A DNA stretch of 57,614 bases, from positions 1 through 57,614 of the IMG/VR virus record IMGVR_UViG_3300042934_000106, one strand, 5' to 3'. The DNA is from a virus. The notes under the pieces were generated by a model, which was not told the DNA's origin, made no database searches, and saw only the letters and a program-made list of their open reading frames with translations. This document shows, piece after piece, positions 1-57,614 of this stretch. The position numbers were made by a program, and so were the translations under genes. The first letter of the stretch is position 1. Each line of letters starts with the position of its first letter.

Positions 1-127
1 AGTGGAGATGAGACCAGCCTCCACCATGTCTTCGTAGTCCTGGTGCTCCGGGTCACAGACGATGTGGACGCTCACCGGGACCTGTACCGCGGGGTAGTCC
101 TCCAGATATCGGGAGCTGTAGTTGCTG
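1..127 (+). repeat. Exact copy of window end (assembly overlap)
   Basis: Same 127 bases as 57488-57614; see that entry. The junction lies inside the ribonucleotide reductase gene and keeps its frame. Confidence 0.95.
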
Positions 128-36659: not shown

Positions 36660-38003
36660 TCACAACCAACCCCCAGACAGCATAAGTTCTTGTGTCTCGG
36701 GGTTGTCCAGGGTCCGCACCTTAGGTTGCTCCGGAATCCGTACCTGTGCCGGCACGGGCTCTTGTTCCTGCTGTTCTGCCTCAGGTTCCGCAGGAACGCT
36801 CTCGACGTTGGCCCACCGGTACTCGGTTCCAGGTCGACCACGGCCAGAGGTAACCCCCGTGACAATCCGAATGTCGGGCATACCTTCCAGCGCCTTACGG
36901 AAGGCTGCTGCCTTTGCTCGTGCTCCCAGAGCACGGAGCATGTCGGAATGAGCCACCTTGCCATCGTGTCGAGTCATGATCTCTCGGATTAGATCAGGCA
37001 GACTCTTGAACTCTCCTCGGCTGGAAGCCTTTGTGTCCTCTCGAACAAGCTTCCCTACGCTCTGAGTGGAGTATTGAACGAACGCCCACGCAGCATTGAC
37101 AGCCTTTCGGCTGATGACTGTCTGGCGCTCTGTCGCGGTGAGTACCGCGGCCACCCTCAGAATCTGCTCTGGAGTTCGTTCGACATAGCAGGAAAGGTGC
37201 TTAGGAGTCTCCTCCTGCTTAAGTTCGAACTCAACGCGGAGTTCGTCAAAACGCTCCCCCGCGGAAGGGTCCAGTGTAAGCACACGGGGACGGCTACGAG
37301 CCCAATCATAGGCTTCAGCAAGCCCCTTCACCTCTGGGTAAAGCTCCCTGTTGTTGTATGGCAGGATCTTGGACCGGTGCACAAGCACGGGGAGGAGCCT
37401 GTTATAGCTACCTCCCCGGGCATCCCGCGGTTTGATGTAGTCAGTCCACTCCCCTGGTGTGATGTGGGAGTGAAAGCCCAGACGGGGATCAGGGACAGTC
37501 ATAGACACTCTTGTCGTGGTGTGCCGGATGGTGGCCCCATCCCAGCAATTCCGTAGCTTGCTGGCAAAGGTAGGACACCGGTTCTGTCGCTTCAGGTTCT
37601 CTGACCACTCCTCATCAATGGTGATGACTCGTGTGTCCGGACCTCCTTCAGTTCCCTCCGTCCGCTCCTGTTGCTCAAACAGAACCTGAGTGAGAGACGG
37701 ACCAGACGACACACCCCCCGCGGTGCGGTCTTCCAGGAACGCACCGATAGAGGGTTGCAGCATTCCCTTGGCTACCCGTAGCGCAGTCCCCTTACGGCCG
37801 ATGGCAGATTCCCCCGCAAGTACAGTCCAGACGACGACAGGGCGCCCGTTCCAGAGCGTCACGTGTCCACCGATGGCACTGGACCACAGAGCAAGCACCG
37901 CGGCGTACACACCTACCGGGTCTGCCTCTGTGTAAGGGTCCGCGGCAACGACAGCATCGCCGATGGGCCCATACCTCATGCTCTCGAATGCTTCCAGGCT
38001 CAT
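36660..38003 (-). CDS. DUF3987-like replication initiator or helicase-like protein
   Basis: 447 residues. The N-terminal part (ADPVGVYAAVLALWSSAIGG) followed by LAGESAIGRKGTALRVAKGM is a P-loop-like segment as seen in DUF3987/YfjI-type replication proteins of actinobacterial phages and plasmids. A winged-helix-like end is visible in IREIMTRHDGKVAHSDMLRAL. The usual Lys-Ser/Thr of Walker A is replaced by RKGT, so the nucleotide site may be atypical. The gene is the largest of the cassette and its repeats nearby are iteron-like, which makes an initiator role attractive but unproven. Confidence 0.6.
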   Translation of the reverse strand: MSLEAFESMRYGPIGDAVVAADPYTEADPVGVYAAVLALWSSAIGGHVTLWNGRPVVVWTVLAGESAIGRKGTALRVAKGMLQPSIGAFLEDRTAGGVSSGPSLTQVLFEQQERTEGTEGGPDTRVITIDEEWSENLKRQNRCPTFASKLRNCWDGATIRHTTTRVSMTVPDPRLGFHSHITPGEWTDYIKPRDARGGSYNRLLPVLVHRSKILPYNNRELYPEVKGLAEAYDWARSRPRVLTLDPSAGERFDELRVEFELKQEETPKHLSCYVERTPEQILRVAAVLTATERQTVISRKAVNAAWAFVQYSTQSVGKLVREDTKASSRGEFKSLPDLIREIMTRHDGKVAHSDMLRALGARAKAAAFRKALEGMPDIRIVTGVTSGRGRPGTEYRWANVESVPAEPEAEQQEQEPVPAQVRIPEQPKVRTLDNPETQELMLSGGWL

Positions 38004-38131
38004 GACTCCCCCTTTTCCGGAGTGTCACATGTCGAGCCCAATGGATTGTCCCCGTCAAGGACGTGCACCCATCGACCCATCCAAATAACCAGGACTCCAC
38101 AGTTCTTGCACATTCCACTGAACTTACTCAC
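38000..38131 (-). CDS. Small zinc-ribbon-like protein, 43 aa
   Basis: GTG 38131 overlaps the upstream stop; its own stop overlaps the start of the initiator-like gene. Contains CKNCG and a further cysteine. Likely metal-binding. Function unknown. Confidence 0.6.
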   Translation of the reverse strand: MSKFSGMCKNCGVLVIWMGRWVHVLDGDNPLGSTCDTPEKGES

Positions 38132-38328
38132 TGTCCTACCTCCATCGGATCTCCGAGAATCTGAGTGAACTGGTCAGCGAACTTGTCCTCATGCTCCTTG
38201 CACAAGAACCACGTCTTGCCGGCAAGGCGGATCTCTACCACGGAGTCAGTAGCTGATCCGTCCTTTCGGTAGCACCCATCACATGCGTTCTCTATGACTT
38301 GCTCGATCATTCTCACTACTCGTGCCAT
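38128..38328 (-). CDS. Small Cys/His protein, 66 aa
   Basis: ATG 38328. The pattern CDGCYRKDG...WFLCKEHED gives a C-x2-C ... C-x2-H zinc motif, followed by a helical end. Part of the Cys-rich cassette. Function unknown. Confidence 0.68.
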   Translation of the reverse strand: MARVVRMIEQVIENACDGCYRKDGSATDSVVEIRLAGKTWFLCKEHEDKFADQFTQILGDPMEVGQ

Positions 38329-38441
38329 TGCTCCTCCTTAAGCCGCTGGATAGCGGCATTCCTTGCTTCCTCGTTGCTCAATCCAGCCTTCTTGTACTCC
38401 GCGTAGTAGTTGCGGTATCGCTGGTACCATCCCGTTCTCAT
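38316..38441 (-). CDS. Small basic helical protein, 41 aa
   Basis: ATG 38441 with GGAG five bases upstream. MRTGWYQRYRNYYAEYKKAG is rich in Tyr and Arg, then helical. It resembles the N-terminal halves of the small coiled proteins at 48112-48845. Function unknown. Confidence 0.62.
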   Translation of the reverse strand: MRTGWYQRYRNYYAEYKKAGLSNEEARNAAIQRLKEEQWHE

Positions 38442-38478
38442 CTACTCTCCTCTATTGACTGACCAACCATGAACGCAA

Positions 38479-38508
38479 GCAGTCCCCCGCGGTTAAGAGG
38501 GGGACTGC
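38479..38508 (-). terminator. Hairpin between two cassette genes
   Basis: GCAGTCCCCC and GGGGGACTGC form a ten-base stem with a ten-base loop, followed on the minus strand by TTGCGTT. It may end the upstream transcript and separate two units in the cassette. Confidence 0.6.
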
Positions 38509-38525
38509 GTACGAACATGAGAGGC

Positions 38526-38765
38526 TCAGACAGTCACTCGATACGTCGTAGTCCGACGCTGGTACAGGAACTCCTTTACGACTGCCTTGACCAGGAACCT
38601 AGTTACCTGGGCAGGATCTGCGTAAGCCTGAGCTGTTGTCCCGCAGTCCTCAAACACTGCCCTGAGAGCATCCATTCGGAGTTTGGGGGTCTCCATCCAT
38701 GCTGCTGTCATGGCACGGAAGACAAGCTCCCCTGACTCTTCTGCGTACCGCTTCATGAGGCTCAC
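38526..38765 (-). CDS. Hypothetical helical protein, 79 aa
   Basis: GTG 38765 lies seven bases after GGAGG; ATG 38756 is an alternative. Content is helical (RFLVKAVVKEFLYQRR near the end). One cysteine pair-free protein between Cys-rich neighbours. Function unknown. Confidence 0.65.
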   Translation of the reverse strand: MSLMKRYAEESGELVFRAMTAAWMETPKLRMDALRAVFEDCGTTAQAYADPAQVTRFLVKAVVKEFLYQRRTTTYRVTV

Positions 38766-38769
38766 TTGA

Positions 38770-39021
38770 TTACCTCCACACAGTAGAAACACGGATGGCC
38801 ATTTCCTCTGTTACGGGAAAGAGGATGTGGACACAGGTTACGTAGGACGATCTGTTGAGGAGCCCTCTTGCCTTTTCCACGGCTCCGGCATAGCTTTCCG
38901 GCTGAGGGTGAATCCATGACTCATCTTCAAAGGGTTTCCCCTCCTGATCTACGCCCACCAACTCAAAGAAGAGTGTGGCGGGGTCGAACGTCACGCCGTT
39001 TACTGTCTCCTGCACTGCCAT
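38770..39021 (-). CDS. Hypothetical protein, 83 aa
   Basis: ATG 39021 overlaps the upstream stop (TGATG). The sequence ETVNGVTFDPATLFFELVG looks beta-rich; no motif. Function unknown. Confidence 0.66.
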   Translation of the reverse strand: MAVQETVNGVTFDPATLFFELVGVDQEGKPFEDESWIHPQPESYAGAVEKARGLLNRSSYVTCVHILFPVTEEMAIRVSTVWR

Positions 39022-39401
39022 CACATCCAATACTTTCCCTCAGCGTGCCAAACGGCACGGAGTACACGGGCAATCTCCGCTTCGATGAACGACCACTCAG
39101 CCTTAATGACGTGGCGGACACTGATGTCTGTCCGGTGTGCCGCCCGCTTTGCCTTGCGCCATTCCAGCGCACGATGAATGGTCATCAGTTCCAGCTTGGA
39201 CAGTTCCCACGCCTGTTCATCAGGCAGGAAGTTGTCCGAACTCATATGCACCATGCCGCGGGCAGCACTCACGTACTCCGTGCCAGTCCAGATGTTGTCT
39301 CGTGACTGGAGTTCCAGGGCCCTGCGGAGTGTGGTCCGGACGTAGGCTGTACATGCGTAGCTGTAGGTAGCTACGCGGTAGGTCTGTTCCGTGTCGTTCA
39401 C
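39021..39401 (-). CDS. Hypothetical protein, 126 aa
   Basis: GTG 39401 follows GGAGG seven bases upstream. The protein is helical with aromatic residues and basic patches (RALEWRKAKRAAHRTDISVR). No family recognised; it is the longest protein of the middle part of the cassette. Confidence 0.7.
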   Translation of the reverse strand: MNDTEQTYRVATYSYACTAYVRTTLRRALELQSRDNIWTGTEYVSAARGMVHMSSDNFLPDEQAWELSKLELMTIHRALEWRKAKRAAHRTDISVRHVIKAEWSFIEAEIARVLRAVWHAEGKYWM

Positions 39402-39493
39402 TGCCTTACCTCCGTGTTGTGCGCTAAGTGGTTCCTAGCGACTCGGCAAAGGTGACTGGCAAACGTCAGTCACCAATGCCCAATCCCTAGGAA

Positions 39494-39694
39494 CTAGTGC
39501 GTGACAGGGGCAGTGGTGATGCCCGGATCATCGTCCTTACGGTGCGTCTCGCACCGAAGAACACATGAGCAGTGCTTGTCCCCGCGGAACTCAAAGAACT
39601 CCCAATGAGTGGGAGACTCCTCACAGAGGGGGATGCACTTCTTACCCTCCGAGGCCGCATAACTGGAGTAGTGAACGCCGATACGGTTACTCAT
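39494..39694 (-). CDS. Small Cys/His-rich protein, 66 aa
   Basis: ATG 39694. Cysteines and histidines cluster in CIPLCEESPTH and HCSCVLRCETH, giving two C-x(2-3)-C pairs. Probably zinc-binding. It follows a hairpin region (39424-39490) with nested inverted repeats. Function unknown. Confidence 0.66.
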   Translation of the reverse strand: MSNRIGVHYSSYAASEGKKCIPLCEESPTHWEFFEFRGDKHCSCVLRCETHRKDDDPGITTAPVTH

Positions 39695-39761
39695 TTGTCT
39701 GCCTTTCCGGGCATAGAAAAGGGACCAAGGGCGTGTTCCCTCAGTCACACCTACTGCTGTT

Positions 39762-40145
39762 TCAGGCGCCGTTCCGGCATCCTTGCTTGACGTATTCAGC
39801 CTGTGCTCGCACGGAACGGCGCTCCCCGTTGTCCGTGTCGTCTGACACTAGGTCTCGGTACATAACGCGTCCCGCTTCAGTCTCCTGCATGGCCCCGCAA
39901 GGACCGTAGGACGCAGTCAGAGACTCCACTGTGGGTTCGTCCACACAGAGACGGCCGTTACCGTCTTCCTTGACGGAGGAGCCATCCTCGAAGGTGATGG
40001 TTGAACAGGCTCCGTCCTTGAATGCAGACACCCTTGCCCGCTGCACTTCCTGTCGGTTGTGCTCTTGCATCACGGAGTGAGTGATGCCCACGGAAACACC
40101 CGCAGAAAGGATGATGGACACCAGTGCAGTAGCGATGTACCTCAC
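39762..40145 (-). CDS. Membrane-anchored or secreted protein, 127 aa
   Basis: GTG 40145. An N-terminal hydrophobic segment (MRYIATALVSIILSAGVSVG) can act as a signal anchor; the rest is hydrophilic with four cysteines, possibly two disulfides outside the cell. It is one of the few cassette proteins with export features. Function unknown. Confidence 0.68.
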   Translation of the reverse strand: MRYIATALVSIILSAGVSVGITHSVMQEHNRQEVQRARVSAFKDGACSTITFEDGSSVKEDGNGRLCVDEPTVESLTASYGPCGAMQETEAGRVMYRDLVSDDTDNGERRSVRAQAEYVKQGCRNGA

Positions 40146-40146
40146 G

Positions 40147-40347
40147 TCAGTTCCCCGTCTCGTCGTAGTTGTACGCGTCGTCTCGCTGGCATGTGAACCA
40201 GGAATGATGCTCCTGGCCTACCTGGGAGTTCCAGTCTCGGCAGTCAGCCTCTTGGCATTCCGAGCACAGTTCAGGCTTTGTGGTGTCACTCGATACCGTG
40301 ATGTCCATGCAGTCACGGCAAGCGCAGTGCGTGTTTCCGCTGGTCAT
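40147..40347 (-). CDS. Small Cys-rich protein, 66 aa
   Basis: ATG 40347 begins three bases after the upstream stop. HCACRDC, LCSECQEADC and FTCQRD give seven cysteines in a compact protein that should bind more than one metal. Function unknown. Confidence 0.66.
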   Translation of the reverse strand: MTSGNTHCACRDCMDITVSSDTTKPELCSECQEADCRDWNSQVGQEHHSWFTCQRDDAYNYDETGN

Positions 40348-40349
40348 GT

Positions 40350-40733
40350 TCACGCCCCCCATTCCGTCATCGCGTGACGCTCACCGTGGTACTCACTTCC
40401 GCATCCCTGGCAATCAGACATGCTGAATGTGTTCGTCTCGCAGTCGCATTCGTAGTCGTCTGGGTAGACGTGGTCCGACGGGTCGTGGTGAGCCCGGGAG
40501 TCGTCTCCGTGCTCTTCACAGTCGTCGCCGTGAGTGCACATGCACTTGACCGCGCATGCGTCGTCATGGTCCTCCCGCCCCATACCGGGACACGCCTCAG
40601 GGGACAGGCGAGAAAGAGGCTCACCCCCCTCATGCCCCTCATCACGATGGCAGTCTCCGCACTCGCCGTTCGCAGCGTGCATGATGCAGTTCGTGCACAC
40701 CCAAATGGTCCACGACTCACGTGTCTTGCCCAT
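40350..40733 (-). CDS. Cys/His-rich acidic protein, 127 aa
   Basis: ATG 40733 with AAGG upstream. About fifteen cysteines and many His/Asp are spread in pairs (CTNCIMHAANGECGDC, CMCTHGDDC, CDCETN, DCQGC). This is unusually metal-rich for a phage protein; no family recognised. Confidence 0.68.
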   Translation of the reverse strand: MGKTRESWTIWVCTNCIMHAANGECGDCHRDEGHEGGEPLSRLSPEACPGMGREDHDDACAVKCMCTHGDDCEEHGDDSRAHHDPSDHVYPDDYECDCETNTFSMSDCQGCGSEYHGERHAMTEWGA

Positions 40734-40769
40734 AGTCTTGCCTTTCACTTGAACGGATAGGGTCAATAC

Positions 40770-40792
40770 GGGGGCCGGGCTTGCCGGCCCCC
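40770..40792 (-). terminator. Hairpin between two cassette genes
   Basis: GGGGGCCGG and CCGGCCCCC form a nine-base stem, loop GCTTG (plus strand); no T run follows on the minus strand (GTATTG). It lies between the gene 40811-40987 and its downstream neighbour. Confidence 0.6.
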
Positions 40793-40810
40793 TCTATTCA
40801 CCCGACCCAT

Positions 40811-40987
40811 TCAGGAGTGGTGCAGGAAGAACGAGTGAAGCTCATCCATGTCATTCCGAGAGAGCCAGTGGTTCCACTCAGGAGACAACGGGGGGCGGAA
40901 CATTCCCTCCGGAAACCAGTCAGGCAGAGGACCCTTTGTGAGTCCCTGCATGGGCAGAGGCAGATCCTTGTCCAGGGTGACGCTCAT
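40811..40987 (-). CDS. Small proline-rich protein behind an operator, 58 aa
   Basis: ATG 40987 with AAGGA upstream. The protein reads MSVTLDKDLPLPMQGLTKG... with Pro and Trp-rich turns and ends HSFFLHHS. It is the first gene downstream of the operator at 41016-41029, so it should be controlled by the repressor. Function unknown. Confidence 0.68.
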   Translation of the reverse strand: MSVTLDKDLPLPMQGLTKGPLPDWFPEGMFRPPLSPEWNHWLSRNDMDELHSFFLHHS

Positions 40988-41000
40988 TCTCGTGTCCTTT

Positions 41001-41029
41001 CATGCGACCCTGATTGGTCGCATGTCAAC
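41001..41029 (-). promoter_or_regulatory. Operator with inverted half-site before 40811-40987
   Basis: Operator GGTCGCATGTCAAC (41016-41029) preceded by its inverted half CATGCGACC (41001-41009), six bases apart. It forms a nine-base dyad that could bind two protein units. Confidence 0.75.
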
Positions 41030-41052
41030 CTATGGGTAAAAAAAGGAGTGGG

Positions 41053-41223
41053 TCAGCGAGAGAGGTACTTACGGATAGACTGGCGGAACTTGCTTTCGTC
41101 ACCGCGCTTGACACTGCGACGCTTCACCTTGCGCCCCCTACCGGGAGGCTGGCCACAGCAGTAACAGTCTCGCCCTCCGGGTCCCTCCGGGCACTGCTTG
41201 CCTGGCATCCTGCCCTGGTTCAC
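41053..41223 (-). CDS. Small basic zinc-knuckle-like protein, 56 aa
   Basis: GTG 41223 overlaps the upstream stop. CPEGPGGRDCYCCGQ provides four cysteines and GRKVKRRSVKRG is strongly basic, so a nucleic-acid-binding role is plausible. Function unknown. Confidence 0.65.
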   Translation of the reverse strand: MNQGRMPGKQCPEGPGGRDCYCCGQPPGRGRKVKRRSVKRGDESKFRQSIRKYLSR

Positions 41224-41402
41224 TTGCTCCCCCTGCCCACACGGAGTGCCTGATACGTCGACCTGAGATCCTGAGGACGATTGTCCCTGAGGTAGTAACC
41301 CCAACCCCAAAGGGTGACCGGATCGTTCTTGTTCCGACGTGCCTCCAACACGTCCTCCGGAACGGGCCCCTTGGGTGCGTTCTGCTTGGCCAGGTTAACC
41401 AT
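41220..41402 (-). CDS. Hypothetical basic protein, 60 aa
   Basis: ATG 41402 overlaps the upstream stop by one base. Basic N-terminus, aromatic centre (LWGWGYYLRDNRP). Function unknown. Confidence 0.68.
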   Translation of the reverse strand: MVNLAKQNAPKGPVPEDVLEARRNKNDPVTLWGWGYYLRDNRPQDLRSTYQALRVGRGSK

Positions 41403-41599
41403 TACTCGTCACCTCTGATTCCGTACTCCGTGTTGACCATACGGGCGTCAATCTCTGCCCCGTAGAAGTTGATGAGCACGACCGCAGCTTGCTTGACGTG
41501 ATCCGGGGTGTCCGGGTGGTTGCGGATCAGATCCATACGGAATCGAGCGTTGTACAGATCTTCACCAGTCATGCTCTTGAGCGCAGGGATGTTCCTCAT
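41402..41599 (-). CDS. Hypothetical protein, 65 aa
   Basis: ATG 41599 overlaps the upstream stop (ATGA). The sequence MRNIPALKSMTGEDLYNARF... is helical and mixed. Function unknown. Confidence 0.68.
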   Translation of the reverse strand: MRNIPALKSMTGEDLYNARFRMDLIRNHPDTPDHVKQAAVVLINFYGAEIDARMVNTEYGIRGDE

Positions 41600-41871
41600 G
41601 CTGCCCTCCTGACGAACTTGTACGGACCGGCGTTGCCGGCACGCATCATGAGCCTGCCGTTCTTGCTCCACTTGGTCTCGTAGCTCTCGTAGAGGGTTGT
41701 GAAGGCGTCGCTGTGCTCCTTGTACGCCTCAGCGTGGAATGCAGCCCACTCCTGTGCCTCCGTCATGTCCGGGGCCTGATGCGTCATGCCCACAGAGGGA
41801 GCCGTGACCATGCCACCGATACCGAGACCGAACACCACGGTCATGACCGCGGAGATAACCCACATGATCAT
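41596..41871 (-). CDS. Membrane-anchored protein, 91 aa
   Basis: ATG 41871 with GGAGAGG upstream. MIMWVISAVMTVVFGLGIGG is a membrane span; the rest is polar and helical. It lies directly downstream of structured element E1 (41887-41950). Function unknown. Confidence 0.68.
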   Translation of the reverse strand: MIMWVISAVMTVVFGLGIGGMVTAPSVGMTHQAPDMTEAQEWAAFHAEAYKEHSDAFTTLYESYETKWSKNGRLMMRAGNAGPYKFVRRAA

Positions 41872-41886
41872 TGCTCTGTCCTCTCC

Positions 41887-41950
41887 TAGACGGAAGTAAC
41901 AGGACACACGGACGGTTCATGCCGTCCGTGTGTCCGATACCTCTTATCTA
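41887..41950 (-). repeat. Structured intergenic element E1
   Basis: Begins TAGACGGAAGTAA and ends CCGATACCTCTTATCTA on the plus strand. It contains a 14-base inverted repeat (GGACACACGGACGG and its complement, 41911-41935 region). Ends match E2 almost exactly. It sits between the genes 41948-42187 and 41596-41871. Confidence 0.8.
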
Positions 41951-42187
41951 GCGGTACATTGTTGCTGCGGTAAGACCAATCCACTCCCCAACGATCTCTT
42001 CCGGGGTGTATGCAATGTCATCCCACATGACCTCTACTGCGTCGAACGCGTCGATGACGTTCAACCACTGATAGCGGTTGATCATCTTAAGTGCTCCCAG
42101 TGCTTCCGCGTATTGCCCGCTGTTGTACTGACGGATGATCCCGTTACGGAACGGGATCAGGGTGTTGCTGTATCCGGTTTGCATCAT
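41948..42187 (-). CDS. Hypothetical protein, 79 aa
   Basis: ATG 42187 (ATGATG) with AAGGAG six bases upstream. The sequence is helical with aromatic residues (MINRYQWLNVIDAFDAVEVM). It lies between elements E1 and E2. Function unknown. Confidence 0.7.
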   Translation of the reverse strand: MMQTGYSNTLIPFRNGIIRQYNSGQYAEALGALKMINRYQWLNVIDAFDAVEVMWDDIAYTPEEIVGEWIGLTAATMYR

Positions 42188-42216
42188 GATGTACTCCTTT
42201 ATATCGCCTTTAAACA

Positions 42217-42271
42217 TAGACGGAAGTAAGAGGGCGCCTGTACGAGACAGACGCCCGATACCTCTTATCTA
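42217..42271 (-). repeat. Structured intergenic element E2
   Basis: Plus strand TAGACGGAAGTAAG at the left and CCGATACCTCTTATCTA at the right, as in E1. The centre is GGGCGCCTGT...ACAGACGCCC, a hairpin whose outer stem TAAGAGG/CCTCTTA is shared with E1. It lies in the leader of 41948-42187 just behind the operator 42285-42298. Confidence 0.82.
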
Positions 42272-42284
42272 GGTCAGCATGTAT

Positions 42285-42298
42285 GGTCGCAAGTCAAC
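42285..42298 (-). promoter_or_regulatory. Operator (A form) before element E2
   Basis: GGTCGCAAGTCAAC. TAGATA lies 20 bases past the -35, at the edge of element E2; spacing is unusual. Confidence 0.7.
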
Positions 42299-42303
42299 TT
42301 AAG

Positions 42304-42660
42304 CTAGTCCGTTGTCTCTACGTAGACCAGGTAACCGTCCTGGCGCTCCCAGTGGTATCCGAGCTTGACCAGTCCATCGAACACGAACACCGCCCGACCG
42401 CAGTCGGCGCACTGGTGAGGGTGAGTGTCCGTGCTGGCCTTGATAGGGCCCTGGTCCACCACGCAACGGACCACGTTACTGGGAACGCTGTCCTCCTGCT
42501 TGGCCTGTGGCTTGAACTTGCTCTGGTCCACGTTGTGGTTGATCAGAGTCAGGTTCGCGTAAAGACGGACCGAGGACAGCATGCGTGCCGCTTCGAGTTC
42601 ATCCGTGAACTCAGGACGGAATACCTTGCCCTGGTCGTCCTTGTACTGTACGTAGAACAT
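42304..42660 (-). CDS. Hypothetical protein with CxxC, 118 aa
   Basis: ATG 42660 with AGGAG seven bases upstream. The first two thirds are helical and charged (TDELEAARMLSSVRLYANL), and HQCADCGRAVFVF forms a possible half zinc ribbon near the end. Function unknown. Confidence 0.7.
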   Translation of the reverse strand: MFYVQYKDDQGKVFRPEFTDELEAARMLSSVRLYANLTLINHNVDQSKFKPQAKQEDSVPSNVVRCVVDQGPIKASTDTHPHQCADCGRAVFVFDGLVKLGYHWERQDGYLVYVETTD

Positions 42661-42678
42661 TGATGCTCCTGTATCTGC

Positions 42679-42733
42679 TAGGCGACAGTAAGAGGACGCT
42701 GGTTCGAGACCAGCGCCCGATACTGCTTACCTA
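42679..42733 (-). repeat. Structured intergenic element E3
   Basis: Plus strand starts TAGGCGACAGTAAG, has a hairpin GCTGG-ttcgaga-CCAGC and ends CCCGATACTGCTTACCTA. Same frame as E1 and E2 with a different hairpin. It precedes the gene 42304-42660. Confidence 0.75.
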
Positions 42734-42921
42734 TGCTTAGAGCACGTATTTAGACCTAGCTGTCTCGGCCTCTTACAGGGAGTCCCCTTGACCGTCGTCT
42801 TACCGCACTGCCAGTAGGGGTCATGTGTTACACAGACTGCCTTGCCTTTCTGTGCGTTGTTGATGCACTTGTATCCGTTGTCCCTTACCTTGGAGCACTT
42901 AGCCACCGTGTCACTCTCCAA
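42727..42921 (-). CDS. Protein with two tandem zinc motifs, 64 aa
   Basis: ATG 42921 (GTG 42906 possible). Two copies of C-x9-C-x10-C-x2-H are seen: one from Cys9 to His34 and one from Cys39 to His63. Each repeat could bind one zinc. Its end overlaps element E3. Function unknown but likely nucleic-acid or protein binding. Confidence 0.75.
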   Translation of the reverse strand: MESDTVAKCSKVRDNGYKCINNAQKGKAVCVTHDPYWQCGKTTVKGTPCKRPRQLGLNTCSKHR

Positions 42922-43231
42922 TGGCGCGGTTCACCCGTGCCTGATACTGCTTGTAGACCGAGTCCGTGTCAGTGGAGGGGGACACAACCTCCTGTCCCTC
43001 TTGGATGATCCGAGCCTGGCCGACCCATTCCTGGTACCGCAGTCCGCTAGCAGGATGGCCAACGACGGTGGCCCACTCTTCTACCGGCTCAGTCGGCACC
43101 CCTTCCTCATCGAACCAAGAGTAGGTGTGTGCCTCCCTCTTCTCCGTGGTCTGATGTGTTCCGCGGTGCCCTGATTCCAGAACACACACATCCCGTCCGT
43201 ACTTCCAACGGTTACCACACTTGTCTGTCAT
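42911..43231 (-). CDS. Hypothetical protein, first gene of the cassette, 106 aa
   Basis: ATG 43231 with AAGGAG six bases upstream. The first 30 residues have KCGNRWKYGRDVCVLESGH, a Cys-Cys-His pattern that may bind zinc. The remainder is polar. It is the first gene downstream of the promoter at 43.5 kb. Function unknown. Confidence 0.72.
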   Translation of the reverse strand: MTDKCGNRWKYGRDVCVLESGHRGTHQTTEKREAHTYSWFDEEGVPTEPVEEWATVVGHPASGLRYQEWVGQARIIQEGQEVVSPSTDTDSVYKQYQARVNRAIGE

Positions 43232-43246
43232 GTCTTGCTCCTTGCA

Positions 43247-43309
43247 TAGGCGACAACATGCCGGCACCTAGACTCCGGAGAGGCTAGCTACCGTCATGCC
43301 GCTTACCTA
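43247..43309 (-). repeat. Structured intergenic element E4 (divergent copy)
   Basis: Plus strand begins TAGGCGACA and ends GCTTACCTA like E3, with a different centre (ATGCCGGCACCTAGACTCCG...). It lies in the leader of the cassette's first gene. Less certain than E1-E3. Confidence 0.55.
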
Positions 43310-43391
43310 TCAATGTGTTGTCAGGATGCAGCCGCGGAGGGTTTCATGCCCCCGCACCCTTGACGCTTAGCCTATTACGCTTAGGCGGTTT

Positions 43392-43408
43392 CACTGTTGA
43401 GTTCTCAA
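43392..43408 (-). promoter_or_regulatory. rRNA-operon-like boxA (Nus antitermination) sequence
   Basis: On the minus strand TTGAGAACTCAACAGTG, the conserved boxA region of actinobacterial rRNA operon leaders and spacers, which loads NusB and S10 onto RNA polymerase. It lies about 85 bases downstream of the promoter's -10 box and just after a boxB-like hairpin (43438-43451). Confidence 0.65.
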
Positions 43409-43437
43409 GGTGTAGCCGATGGCTCACTTTGTACTGA

Positions 43438-43451
43438 GCTAGGTGACTAGC
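43438..43451 (-). promoter_or_regulatory. boxB-like hairpin upstream of boxA
   Basis: GCTAG and CTAGC flank a four-base loop; it precedes boxA in the leftward leader. Confidence 0.5.
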
Positions 43452-43496
43452 CGTTCCTCCGGGCCCTGTCGTCCGGTTGCCCTTCCGACACAGAGA

Positions 43497-43525
43497 ACAT
43501 TACGGGGTCCGTGGTCGCATGTCAA
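43497..43525 (-). promoter_or_regulatory. Leftward promoter of the cassette
   Basis: -35 TTGACA (43520-43525), 17-base spacer, -10 TAATGT (43497-43502). The -35 box is part of the operator 43513-43526. Confidence 0.75.
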
Positions 43526-43526
43526 C
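43513..43526 (-). promoter_or_regulatory. Operator (T form) at cassette promoter
   Basis: GGTCGCATGTCAAC, overlapping the -35 of the cassette promoter (43497-43525). Confidence 0.82.
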
Positions 43527-43553
43527 CGGACCACCAAGATCTTCTGTGCAGAC

Positions 43554-43566
43554 TTCATTCATTCAT
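43554..43566 (-). repeat. GAATGAATGAA-family repeats (first of the 43.5-44.4 kb set)
   Basis: Copies: 43554-43564 (reverse), 43821-43830 (forward), 43894-43904 (reverse), 44132-44142 (forward), 44334-44344 (forward, AATGAATGAAA) and 44389-44397 (partial). The three reverse copies (35984, 43554, 43894) run into a GCATG tail. Confidence 0.75.
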
Positions 43567-43704
43567 GCATGGGTGTGGTGGGAGCACAGGGTGTAGGCCC
43601 GTACCTCTACATAGAGGAACGCGTGTGCGCGCATACCACAGTATGCGGGTGTGCACAAATACGCAGGTCAGTATGCATGCAGTGCTGTGAAGGGTGAGGC
43701 ACAG

Positions 43705-43732
43705 AGGTAGGCACAGGTGCACCTGACTACCT
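43705..43732. repeat. 28-bp near-palindrome
   Basis: The perfect 12-base palindrome CAGGTGCACCTG (43714-43725) is flanked by AGGTAG and CTACCT, so the symmetry extends to about 28 bases. Candidate binding site for a dimeric protein. Confidence 0.75.
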
Positions 43733-44206
43733 GCCCACCGGGCCCTGAGGCTGGCTACAGCTGTACCCGCTCCCCGTCCATTGGGTCATGATCCTGCGCT
43801 CCCCCGCCAGGTATCTCATTGAATGAATGACCTAATTCCAGGCCAGCATGGATTGAATGCCGGCATGCTATTGCCTCAACCCTGCCCGCGTTTATTCATT
43901 CATTTGCATGCGTGTGTACACACCCGGGGTAATGCGTTTATATATACGCAACGGACCCGCCGGGGGCACCTTCCTTCGATCGTGTACGGGTAATGAAGCG
44001 TTGAGAGCCTCTCTAAGAGCCTCCCAGCCCTATCCCTGCCCAAGTCCCTCCAGACCCCTTTTTGAGCCCTCTGAGGGACTCTCAGGCCCTTTCTGGCCCT
44101 ATCCGGGCCTCAGACCCTCCATCTGGGACGAGAATGAATGAAAGAAGTGCCCTCATACGTGTGATCTGGCTCTCAGTTCCAGGATTCTTGACACCAACCA
44201 CCGCGT

Positions 44207-45798: not shown

Positions 45799-47385
45799 TT
45801 GACACAAGTACGTACTCCAGCGCTACTCTCCCTCTACCAGAACGAGGGGGTTGAGTTGCTGTCACCCGACTTGCCACTAGCAGGGTACTGCCGGATCTCG
45901 GATGCAGACCTAGCAGACATCAGAAGAGCCTTGCGACAGGGAGACATCACAGAAGAGGAAGCCGCGGAGCTTGAGAGGAAAGGTGTCCTCAAGCAGAGGG
46001 ACGACGTAAGGACCCTGGCAGAGCGTCATGGTCGAGAGGTCATCTACTACGAGGACAACAACCTCAGCGCCTTCAAGCGCAACGTCCAGAGGCCACGGTT
46101 CCTTCAGATGGTCAAGGACTTGAAGGCCGGCCGACTGGCCGGGATGGTCGTCTACGACATTGACCGAGGCTTCAGACAGCCTCGGGACCTTGAGAAGGTC
46201 ATTGACATCTACCAGGACTTTGCCGAACGCAAGGACGTCCGGATGATCTTTGACACGATGTCAGGCCAGAACTACGACCTCTCCACTGGGGATGGTCGGT
46301 TCTCGGCCCGTCTGTTCGTCAGCATCGCCAACAAGTCCTCCGAGGACACCTCCAGACGGATCAAGAGGGACAACCTCTCCAAGGCCAAGAAGGGTGTCTT
46401 CCACGGAGGAGGCCCTGCCTTCGGTTGGCGCGAAGACGACAGGACCAAGCTAGACCCCAAGGCCGCCGAGCTGGTGAGGAACGTCGTCCTGGGCCACCTC
46501 AAGGGTGACAAGATCGCCACTTGCATGGAATACCTCAATGACAATGGTGCTCTCAACCCCAGCACAGGGAAGCCCTTCACCTGGGCTGGCACCAAGACCC
46601 TCATCTTCAGGGCACGCAACTTTGGGATCAGGATCTACCAAGGTGAGCCACAACTCAACGAGGACGGAGGCTACGTCCTCGGAGACTGGGAGCCCATCTT
46701 CACCAAGGACGACGGCACCCCCGACTTCGATCTCTGGGAGCGCCTGGAGGCGCTGAAGAAGGGCAAGAGCCCTGAGGGGGTACAGGACAAGTCTCAGGTC
46801 AAGTACCTGCTCTCCAGGATTGTCCGATGTGGTCGTTGTGGCTACCCGATGGTTGGTAAGACCGTATGGGTCCGCGGGAAGAAGTCTGAGTCCTTCGCCT
46901 ACAACTGCAACAAGAGCAACCCTGATGCCTGTGGTCGGATGGGAGCTACCGGCCCGAGGGTTGACGAGCTGGTAAAGCAGCTCGTCTGGGCTCAAGTCCT
47001 CCGAGCCAGCAAGAACCGTGCTGTCCCAGAGCCTCAGGACTCCTGGAACAAGGAGTCAGAGCTGAAGGACGTTGAGGATCAGATCACAGAGCTTAAGGCT
47101 CTGTGGGTAGCCAAGAGGGTCAAGGCTGCAACCTACGTCACCACTCTTGATGATCTGGAAGAGCAGAGGTCTGAGCTGAAGGCGGAACGAGCCTTCCATA
47201 CGGCTACGCCGGCAGTTCGCGTCATCACTCCCGAGCTGATGAAGAACGGCTGGGAGGGTCTCTCTGTCGAGAGGCAGCGGATCATCATCAGGTCTGTTCT
47301 CAAGGCAGTCATCATCCACCCTGCCAGGGACGGCAAGAAGGGCGGGCCGTTCGACCCTGCCCGGGTCGAACCAGTCTTTGCCTAG
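45799..47385 (+). CDS. int: Serine integrase (large serine recombinase)
   Basis: 528 residues. Catalytic domain: YCRIS with Ser34, then GRLAGMVVYDIDRGFRQPRD. The recombinase domain follows, and a zinc ribbon CGRCGYPMVG ... YNCNKSNPDACGRM (about 345-385), with a coiled-coil motif near 420-470. It should recombine phage attP with a host attB without cofactors other than the directionality factor for excision. The start is uncertain: TTG 45799 is the only reading that keeps the full N-terminus, and it has no strong ribosome site. Confidence 0.95.
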   Translation: MTQVRTPALLSLYQNEGVELLSPDLPLAGYCRISDADLADIRRALRQGDITEEEAAELERKGVLKQRDDVRTLAERHGREVIYYEDNNLSAFKRNVQRPRFLQMVKDLKAGRLAGMVVYDIDRGFRQPRDLEKVIDIYQDFAERKDVRMIFDTMSGQNYDLSTGDGRFSARLFVSIANKSSEDTSRRIKRDNLSKAKKGVFHGGGPAFGWREDDRTKLDPKAAELVRNVVLGHLKGDKIATCMEYLNDNGALNPSTGKPFTWAGTKTLIFRARNFGIRIYQGEPQLNEDGGYVLGDWEPIFTKDDGTPDFDLWERLEALKKGKSPEGVQDKSQVKYLLSRIVRCGRCGYPMVGKTVWVRGKKSESFAYNCNKSNPDACGRMGATGPRVDELVKQLVWAQVLRASKNRAVPEPQDSWNKESELKDVEDQITELKALWVAKRVKAATYVTTLDDLEEQRSELKAERAFHTATPAVRVITPELMKNGWEGLSVERQRIIIRSVLKAVIIHPARDGKKGGPFDPARVEPVFA

Positions 47386-55895: not shown

Positions 55896-57614
55896 ACGAT
55901 CCCGCAAGATCCGGAGGCACAGACCTCATCGAATCCGGTGTCCGTCACCTCAATGCCCACCTCCTCAGCACGAGCCTTGTACTCCTCGAAGGACACGCGC
56001 TCATAGGGGCTCTGAGGCATGCTCATCTCAGGGAACACGGTGACTCCCTTCAGCTCAGGCAGGAACTCAGCCAGGAGCCGGCTCAGCTCATCCGCTGAGT
56101 ACTGCCCCGGGTCCACGTTGGCCGTGTAGCTCACGGCCTGGTCTGCCCAGTACTCCTGATACATCCGCTGAACGTTCAGCATGTCCCGGATGGTCAAGTC
56201 CCCTGCATGCTGGAAGTACTCGGGATACTCCAGCTCGTCAAGAAGGCTGTCCTTGGTCGGGATCTCAACCACAGAGGTATTGGCTGCGTACTGACAGGGC
56301 TCCACTCGATAGCCCTGCCGGCGGTACTCATCAACCTGGGCAACCTCGTTGGGGTCCACGTTGGAGAACCGAATCCGGCGGATGAAGTATGCAGCGAACG
56401 GAGCATGGGTGGCTTCGCCACTCACGCCGGCCAACTTGCTGATAGTGCCAGTCGGAGCAATCACCCTCTTCTTGATGGGGACAGGGATACGAAGTTCATT
56501 GGCATACTCGGCTGCCGCCTCGTCCACCTCGTCAGCCCACTCAGTGAGCATGGAGGCTACGTAGCCGTTACCGTCCACTTCCGTGGCCTCCGTGTACTTG
56601 ATCCCCTGCTTATAGAGCCAGTCAGCAAAGCCAAGGTGACCAACACCAATACGACGGTAACGAGCGATGGCCTCAGCAGACTTGGGGTCTGCCACGTCAG
56701 CAAACGTGGCCCTAATCAGGTACCGAGTGATGTACCGATGAGCCTCGCTCAGGCCCTCATAGTCAACGGACCCGTCCCCGTCCACGAAGGCAGCCAGGTT
56801 TACAGAACCCAGGTTGCACGGCTCCCAGGGAGTCAGTGTGGCCTCACCACAGGGATTCGTGACGTAGATTCCGTCAACCTCCCCTTCCGCGGTAAGAGCT
56901 GAGTTCCACACACCAGGCTCCCCGTTGTGGAGCATGCCTTCAGCGATGGCCGTAAGCACATCGTGAACGTGGTACAGAGACCCGTCAAACGGTCCGAGAC
57001 TGGTAGTCAGGGTGTCCAGGTGCTCAAGGAAGTTCTGGTCCACCTCAACACTGATGTTGGTGGTCCAGTGACCACCCTCCTTCTTGATGTTGATGAAATC
57101 GAAGATCAGGTCATCGTCCCAACGCATGATGGACATGCGAGCAGAACGACGAACACCACCAGCCACGATGGCCTTCGCAATGGAGTGATCAATGTTCATA
57201 GCGTCGATGCCGTCAATGTGATCCGCTGCTCCAGACTCACGGAAGACGTAAGCGAGGACGCTTCCGATCTCAGACATCATCTCGGCGAAGGGCGCCGGCC
57301 CCGAAGCGGTGCCCCCAAAGGTCTTCAGCGGAGAGCCCTTACACCGGACACGGCTCACGTCGTAGACCCTCTGAGTGTGACGGGTCTTCGGGTCATGAGC
57401 AGTACGGATCAGGTCACCGAGGGCTTCAGCCCAGCCCTCTCGGGAGTCCTCCACCGCATACGCGCCGGCCCAAGTGTGGCTGTACTCAGTGGAGATGAGA
57501 CCAGCCTCCACCATGTCTTCGTAGTCCTGGTGCTCCGGGTCACAGACGATGTGGACGCTCACCGGGACCTGTACCGCGGGGTAGTCCTCCAGATATCGGG
57601 AGCTGTAGTTGCTG
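55892..57614 (-). CDS. nrdJ: Ribonucleotide reductase, class II, main part
   Basis: C-terminal 574 codons of the gene whose start is at 468; the frame continues past the window end. NPCGE contains the second active-site Cys (residue 369 of the joined protein) and the neighbouring catalytic Glu371; CNLGSVNL follows. The last residues, CASGSC at 679-684, form the C-x4-C pair that shuttles electrons from thioredoxin in B12-dependent reductases. This supports an adenosylcobalamin enzyme using ribonucleoside triphosphates, acting as a monomer. Confidence 0.95.
57488..57614 (+). repeat. Exact copy of window start (assembly overlap)
   Basis: 127 bases identical to positions 1-127. This is what a circular contig assembled with a 127-base k-mer leaves behind, so the molecule is closed and the true length is about 57,487 bases. 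It is not a biological terminal repeat. Confidence 0.95.

Follow-up and report, generated by a model that had tools for sequence, protein, structure and literature searches.

The DNA considered here is from a Streptomyces virus, IMG/VR virus record IMGVR_UViG_3300042934_000106, the full 57,614 nucleotides (nt) of which are called the window, and the subject is a short element ahead of a leftward cassette of small genes, whose leader seems to be a captured or imitated Streptomyces ribosomal RNA (rRNA) leader. At the core of the element is a boxA, TTGAGAACTCAACAGTG, which the window matches nowhere else, even when three mismatches are tolerated (0.14 matches expected by chance), and which lies about 80 nt 3' of a TTGACA-17-TAATGT promoter and about 160 nt 5' of the first gene of the cassette. 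The original prediction had a boxA on the minus strand shortly past this promoter with a small hairpin ahead of it, and all parts of this are borne out: the boxA is exact, the promoter is a true consensus match and the hairpin is present (Table 1). A second hairpin follows as a bulged AGCC-ATC-GGCT within 43429-43407. On the minus strand of the cassette the promoter is the only TTGACN-16..19-TANNNT, two being found on the whole minus strand, and it sits some 440 nt inside the right genome end, given that the physical ends of Streptomyces phage Ibantik, the nearest named relative, map to window 43968/43969. Curated Rfam families gave no match up to an E value of 1 in 42600-43968, and no 16S rRNA was found in the window, so the leader is of rRNA type but not part of an rRNA operon.

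Likeness to the Streptomyces rRNA leader

As a 15-mer the boxA has 6, 6, 6, 6 and 7 exact copies in five whole Streptomyces genomes, against two matches in total over the same five genomes for its reversed control with one mismatch allowed. A pattern scan of bacterial genomes returned at least 119 matches; among the matches listed nearly all are 16S leaders of Streptomyces and relatives, and the 16S gene starts 122-239 nt 3' of the host boxA wherever the stored stretch extends that far. Comparison with host rRNA leaders, which the original prediction proposed, therefore came out in its favour, and its claim that a phage leader carries a boxA of the host rRNA type is supported, the likeness in relatives extending over the remaining rRNA leader as well. 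The leaders compared are GCCCGGAGGAAAGCCCGAGAGGGTGAGTACAAAGGAAGCGTCCGTTCCTTGAGAACTCAACAG in the host, GGCCCGGAGGAAAGCCTGAGAAGGTGAGTACAAAGTGAGCCTTTGGCTACACCTTGAGAACTCAACAG in Ibantik and GGCCCGGAGGAACGGCTAGTCACCTAGCTCAGTACAAAGTGAGCCATCGGCTACACCTTGAGAACTCAACAG in the window. Host and phage share an identical boxA and the same order of GCCCGGAGG, hairpin, GTACAAAG, hairpin and boxA, and the distance from the −10 to boxA is about 75-80 nt in host and Likavirus leaders. At the place of hairpin 1 the host too has a hairpin, but of different sequence. The phage leader differs in having no 16S gene after it, no GTGCCAA, a stronger −35 (TTGACA) and protein-coding genes downstream.

A covariance model trained on 26 host 16S leaders only, with phages excluded, has its top window match at the element over its full length, and it also finds the leaders of Lannister (E 5e-11), Joe (5e-10), Ibantik (5e-7), FlowerPower (6e-6) and HaugeAnator (5e-5). 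The second window match of the model, at 41108-41193 (E 0.031), is chiefly over the GCCCGGAGGG end. For likeness outside boxA the leaders were aligned locally, with boxA removed, to 87 host leaders and compared with 300 shuffles, and Ibantik, Lannister, Gilson and two plasmids then scored above 300 of 300 shuffles. Gordonia phage Bantam and Mycobacterium phage PegLeg showed no likeness past boxA when tested against Streptomyces leaders. Hairpin 1 folds better than shuffles (P<=0.05) in 7 of 23 mobile and 18 of 65 host segments, which lends the fold weak support.

Ibantik has the same motif and a promoter, TTGACA-17-TAGTCT, at the matching place. The identity of boxA, its position behind the promoter and its conservation in Ibantik are thus established directly, as is the extended likeness of the leader, strong in the relatives and moderate in the window.

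Of 75 non-redundant boxA sites, 17 have a promoter-like site 73-173 nt upstream, where shuffles give an expectation of 0.6, and none has one in a control stretch downstream. Other boxA leaders often carry TTGACA-17-TAGAGT, TAGAGT being the −10 of host rRNA promoters. The reappearance of this host −10 in several phage leaders, with similar spacing to boxA, would suit capture of an rRNA-type promoter and processing region as a block, with boxA a passenger and the RNA structure setting only stability or RNase III cleavage; this is unlikely, boxA being the best-kept part and persisting in Bantam and PegLeg, where the rest is unrecognisable.

Table 1. Features of the leader and cassette; window positions unless the Ibantik stretch L121 is named
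Feature	Position	Strand	Basis
Vegetative-type promoter TTGACA-17-TAATGT of the leftward cassette	43497..43525	-	Consensus match; TTGACA 43525-43520, TAATGT 43502-43497
rRNA-leader-like (nut-like) element, full length of the host-trained model	43390..43465	-	27.8 bits, E 1.8e-5, model positions 1-69 of 69
GCCCGGAGG block, common to Streptomyces 16S leaders	43456..43464	-	Leader alignment and covariance model
Hairpin 1, GGCTAG-TCAC-CTAGCT	43437..43452	-	Sequence; weak statistical support for the fold
GTACAAAG block and hairpin 2 (AAGTGAGCC-ATC-GGCTACACCTT), host counterpart GTACAAAGGAAGCGTCCGTTCCTT	43407..43434	-	Sequence conservation
boxA TTGAGAACTCAACAGTG	43392..43408	-	Pattern scan with mismatches; host genome counts
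Copy 1 of the recurrent hairpin unit, divergent, 3' of boxA and 5' of gene 1	43241..43304	-	Position of the Ibantik copy L121 11872-11816
Cassette gene 1, 106 amino acids, no Pfam match	42911..43231	-	Open reading frame; Pfam scan
Leftward cassette of small genes, the last a DUF3987 protein	36660..43231	-	Ibantik counterpart: 20 leftward genes annotated
Three further hairpin units TAGATAAGAGGTATC-GG...CC-TCTTACTTCCGTCTA	42737-42678, 42271-42215, 41950-41886 (span 41886..42737)	-	
Ibantik hairpin units	L121 11872-11816, 11460-11404, 11258-11205	-	

The contig itself has an exact 127-nt terminal direct repeat (1-127 and 57488-57614) and looks like a circular assembly joined across genome ends of the Ibantik type. 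At 45799-47385 on the plus strand it codes for a large serine integrase (Resolvase, Recombinase and zinc ribbon), as does Ibantik gene 5, and so the phage is probably temperate.

The element in other phages and in plasmids

In IMG/VR the 15-mer alone is found at about chance level, and for this reason a 17-mer with a reversed control was used. The 17-mer is in 70 contigs and its reversal in 8, and the whole host leader is matched at E<0.01 in 28 of the 70 and in none of the 8. Chance or an assembly artefact might be invoked on the ground that the 15-mer is expected many times in a collection of this size, but that explanation is already refuted by the excess over the reversed control, the conservation in Ibantik and the match of the host-trained model, and its probability is negligible. 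Named phages also carry boxA, either unchanged or altered at one or two positions; it is found in Likavirus, Camvirus, Flowerpowervirus and Immanueltrevirus and in Gilson, Coruscant, Gordonia phage Bantam, Rhodococcus phage RGL3 and Mycobacterium phage PegLeg, so that the search of related phages, Ibantik included, agreed with the original prediction. There are usually one or two copies per genome. RGL3 (L286) and HaugeAnator (L287) each have a pair of boxA-like sites on one strand, some 400 nt from each other, reminiscent of rRNA operons with their leader and spacer boxA.

BLAST of the host leader against the plasmid collection gave 23 records, 22 of Streptomyces and one Nonomuraea replicon, which at 11.85 Mb is a chromosome by its size. 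The distribution over phages and plasmids is, like the boxA identity, a direct observation. Chromosomal copies of the leader element at L181:2519-2550 and L227:7365-7396, with no 16S gene found within 1500 nt, are perhaps integrated elements.

In Lannister, FlowerPower, Gilson, Bantam, RGL3 and HaugeAnator boxA is intergenic and lies 100-700 nt 5' of the gene that opens a co-directional operon; in five of these six that operon is the leftward one of the right arm. In Joe an opposite-strand gene call overlaps boxA, a call that its annotators note was not made by GeneMark, and in Coruscant boxA is inside an annotated gene. The operons behind the phage module include Ocr-like, ArdA-like and other antirestriction genes. 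A boxA variant of PegLeg, TTGAGAACTCAATAG (L284:4001-4447), is directly 5' of the phage transfer-messenger RNA (tmRNA) and transfer RNA (tRNA) cluster. In the Streptomyces plasmids (L374-L378 and 17 further records) a leader-like element stands 5' of long operons, of which the first gene is often of the WhiB family or a small unknown one, with a GntR regulator adjacent. That the element serves as an attachment or packaging site was weighed and rejected, given its conserved orientation and promoter and its location 5' of operons in plasmids. The same placement in cis ahead of operons, those of plasmids included, and the usual one or two copies per genome speak against an action in trans, whereby abundant phage boxA RNA would bind NusB/S10 and draw both off host rRNA synthesis; a perfect host boxA right behind a consensus promoter would suit such a role, which is nevertheless improbable, even more so than capture of boxA as a passenger.

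Proposed antitermination and its possible targets

In bacteria NusB-S10 binds the boxA of nascent pre-rRNA and joins NusA, NusG and partners in making the polymerase resistant to Rho (PMC4807359, PMC6614801), and mycobacterial rRNA has antitermination boxes that bind Nus proteins (PMC5676007). The preferred reading, which we put at roughly 70%, is that the leftward cassette begins with a Streptomyces rRNA leader, captured or imitated, together with its antitermination signal, and that this leader loads host Nus factors. The transcript would begin at the promoter and about 25 nt later would carry GCCCGGAGG, a hairpin, GTACAAAG with the second hairpin and then boxA, to which host NusB/S10 would bind on the nascent RNA. 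With NusA and NusG these may turn the polymerase into the termination-resistant form used at host rRNA, such that one promoter could drive the roughly 7 kb cassette through a long untranslated leader and structured intergenic hairpins, and an antiterminator of the phage's own, of the N type, would be dispensable. Nus binding, read-through and early timing are here predicted by analogy with the known rRNA system.

Several points weigh against this reading. Without boxA the window leader is only moderately host-like, 3 of 300 shuffles being equally good against 0 of 300 for Ibantik, and so its wider likeness to the host leader is in part argued through Ibantik. Hairpin 2 is without covariation, with 83% of cells paired and no double changes, and the GTGCCAA that is 3' of the host boxA has not been retained in the phage leader. 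By both motif scan and covariance model phage phiC31 is without the element, and the need for it is thus not universal among actinophages. Further, rRNA antitermination in E. coli mainly counters Rho, and so passage through intrinsic hairpins is not assured.

What the boxA might overcome turns largely on the hairpins. A unit TAGATAAGAGGTATC-GG(variable stem)CC-TCTTACTTCCGTCTA occurs in four copies in the window and three in Ibantik, its outer sequence conserved, its inner stems varying in sequence yet remaining paired, its U tails poor; no Rfam family matched it in the part scanned, and in IMG/VR the pattern matches only contigs L032 and L379, both with an rRNA-type leader. The copy between boxA and gene 1 is a candidate attenuator or processing site. 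Strong hairpins of Ibantik are intergenic in 8 of 11 cases although intergenic DNA is about one sixth of the stretch. Over 36 boxA sites a strong hairpin stands just 3' of boxA in 11, compared with 2 among 36 random stretches and 7 among 36 upstream ones. In seven other phages 13 of 46 strong hairpins are intergenic, with significance in no single phage, on which ground intergenic hairpins were set aside as a general target, and the Lannister and Joe cassettes have almost none that are strong. The suggestion that the cassette hairpins are the obstacle to be read through is therefore plausible for the window phage and Ibantik and does not hold in general.

Hairpins being few outside these two, protection from Rho is no less probable than read-through of intrinsic terminators. 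An account that invokes Rho only, in which boxA would shield the long untranslated leader and a weakly translated operon of small genes and the hairpins would have a part in RNA processing or stability and not in termination, has the rRNA-type boxA in common with the preferred reading and differs from it in the target alone. It is a serious contender at a little under even odds: Rho protection is the known main effect of rRNA boxA (PMC4807359, PMC6614801), the module is also 5' of the PegLeg tmRNA and tRNA cluster and of operons with few intergenic hairpins, and the hairpin units, with their conserved outer part and poor U tails, are unlike plain terminators. The unit between boxA and gene 1 in the window phage and the intergenic bias of strong hairpins in Ibantik are what it accounts for less well.

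Textbook phage antitermination is that of lambda, in which a phage protein, N, acts on a phage site. The reading of the leader as an rRNA-type antitermination signal shares with lambda nut (boxA-boxB with N) a boxA behind the promoter of an early phage leader, intergenic hairpins and host Nus factors, but the window boxA is of full rRNA type, the hairpins are 5' and not 3' of it, and N would be unneeded. No N-like protein was recognised, Pfam matches being confined to 2 of the 10 proteins scanned (DUF3987 and the integrase), though a short N-like protein could escape such a scan. Closer by phylum is the rrn nut site of Mycobacterium tuberculosis, on which NusA-RNA work was reportedly done by Arnvig in 2004 and Beuth in 2005 (both cited in PMC5676007); likened by description and not by sequence, it too is an actinobacterial rRNA antitermination signal that binds Nus factors, but it belongs to a host rRNA operon.

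Nus factors were historically confined to rRNA and lambdoid phages, to which suhB of E. coli has been added (PMC5725501). The suhB boxA is likewise outside rRNA and lambdoid phages, but it represses a host gene, whereas the boxA considered here heads operons of mobile elements in actinobacteria. In the literature no report was found of an rRNA-type boxA in actinophages or Streptomyces plasmids, one in a subscription journal being possibly missed, and this is consistent with the earlier remark that such a boxA is not widely described in actinophages. What appears to be new, judged from sequence, is the use of a known rRNA-type antitermination leader by actinobacterial mobile elements.

On balance, and by a narrow lead, we favour the wider proposal that actinobacterial phages and Streptomyces plasmids share a module derived from the host rRNA leader, which would work with host Nus factors alone and, with no phage-coded antiterminator, have the first operons transcribed by an rRNA-type polymerase. 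Phages and plasmids of a phylum other than that of lambda's host would then seem to have taken the host rRNA signal whole. If this is so, their early or leading operons, several of which include antirestriction genes, are coupled to the host rRNA transcription machinery, and Nus-dependent antitermination in actinobacteria becomes testable in small constructs. The element also gives a way to spot the start of the main operon in unannotated actinophages, for which the host-trained model is a ready search tool.
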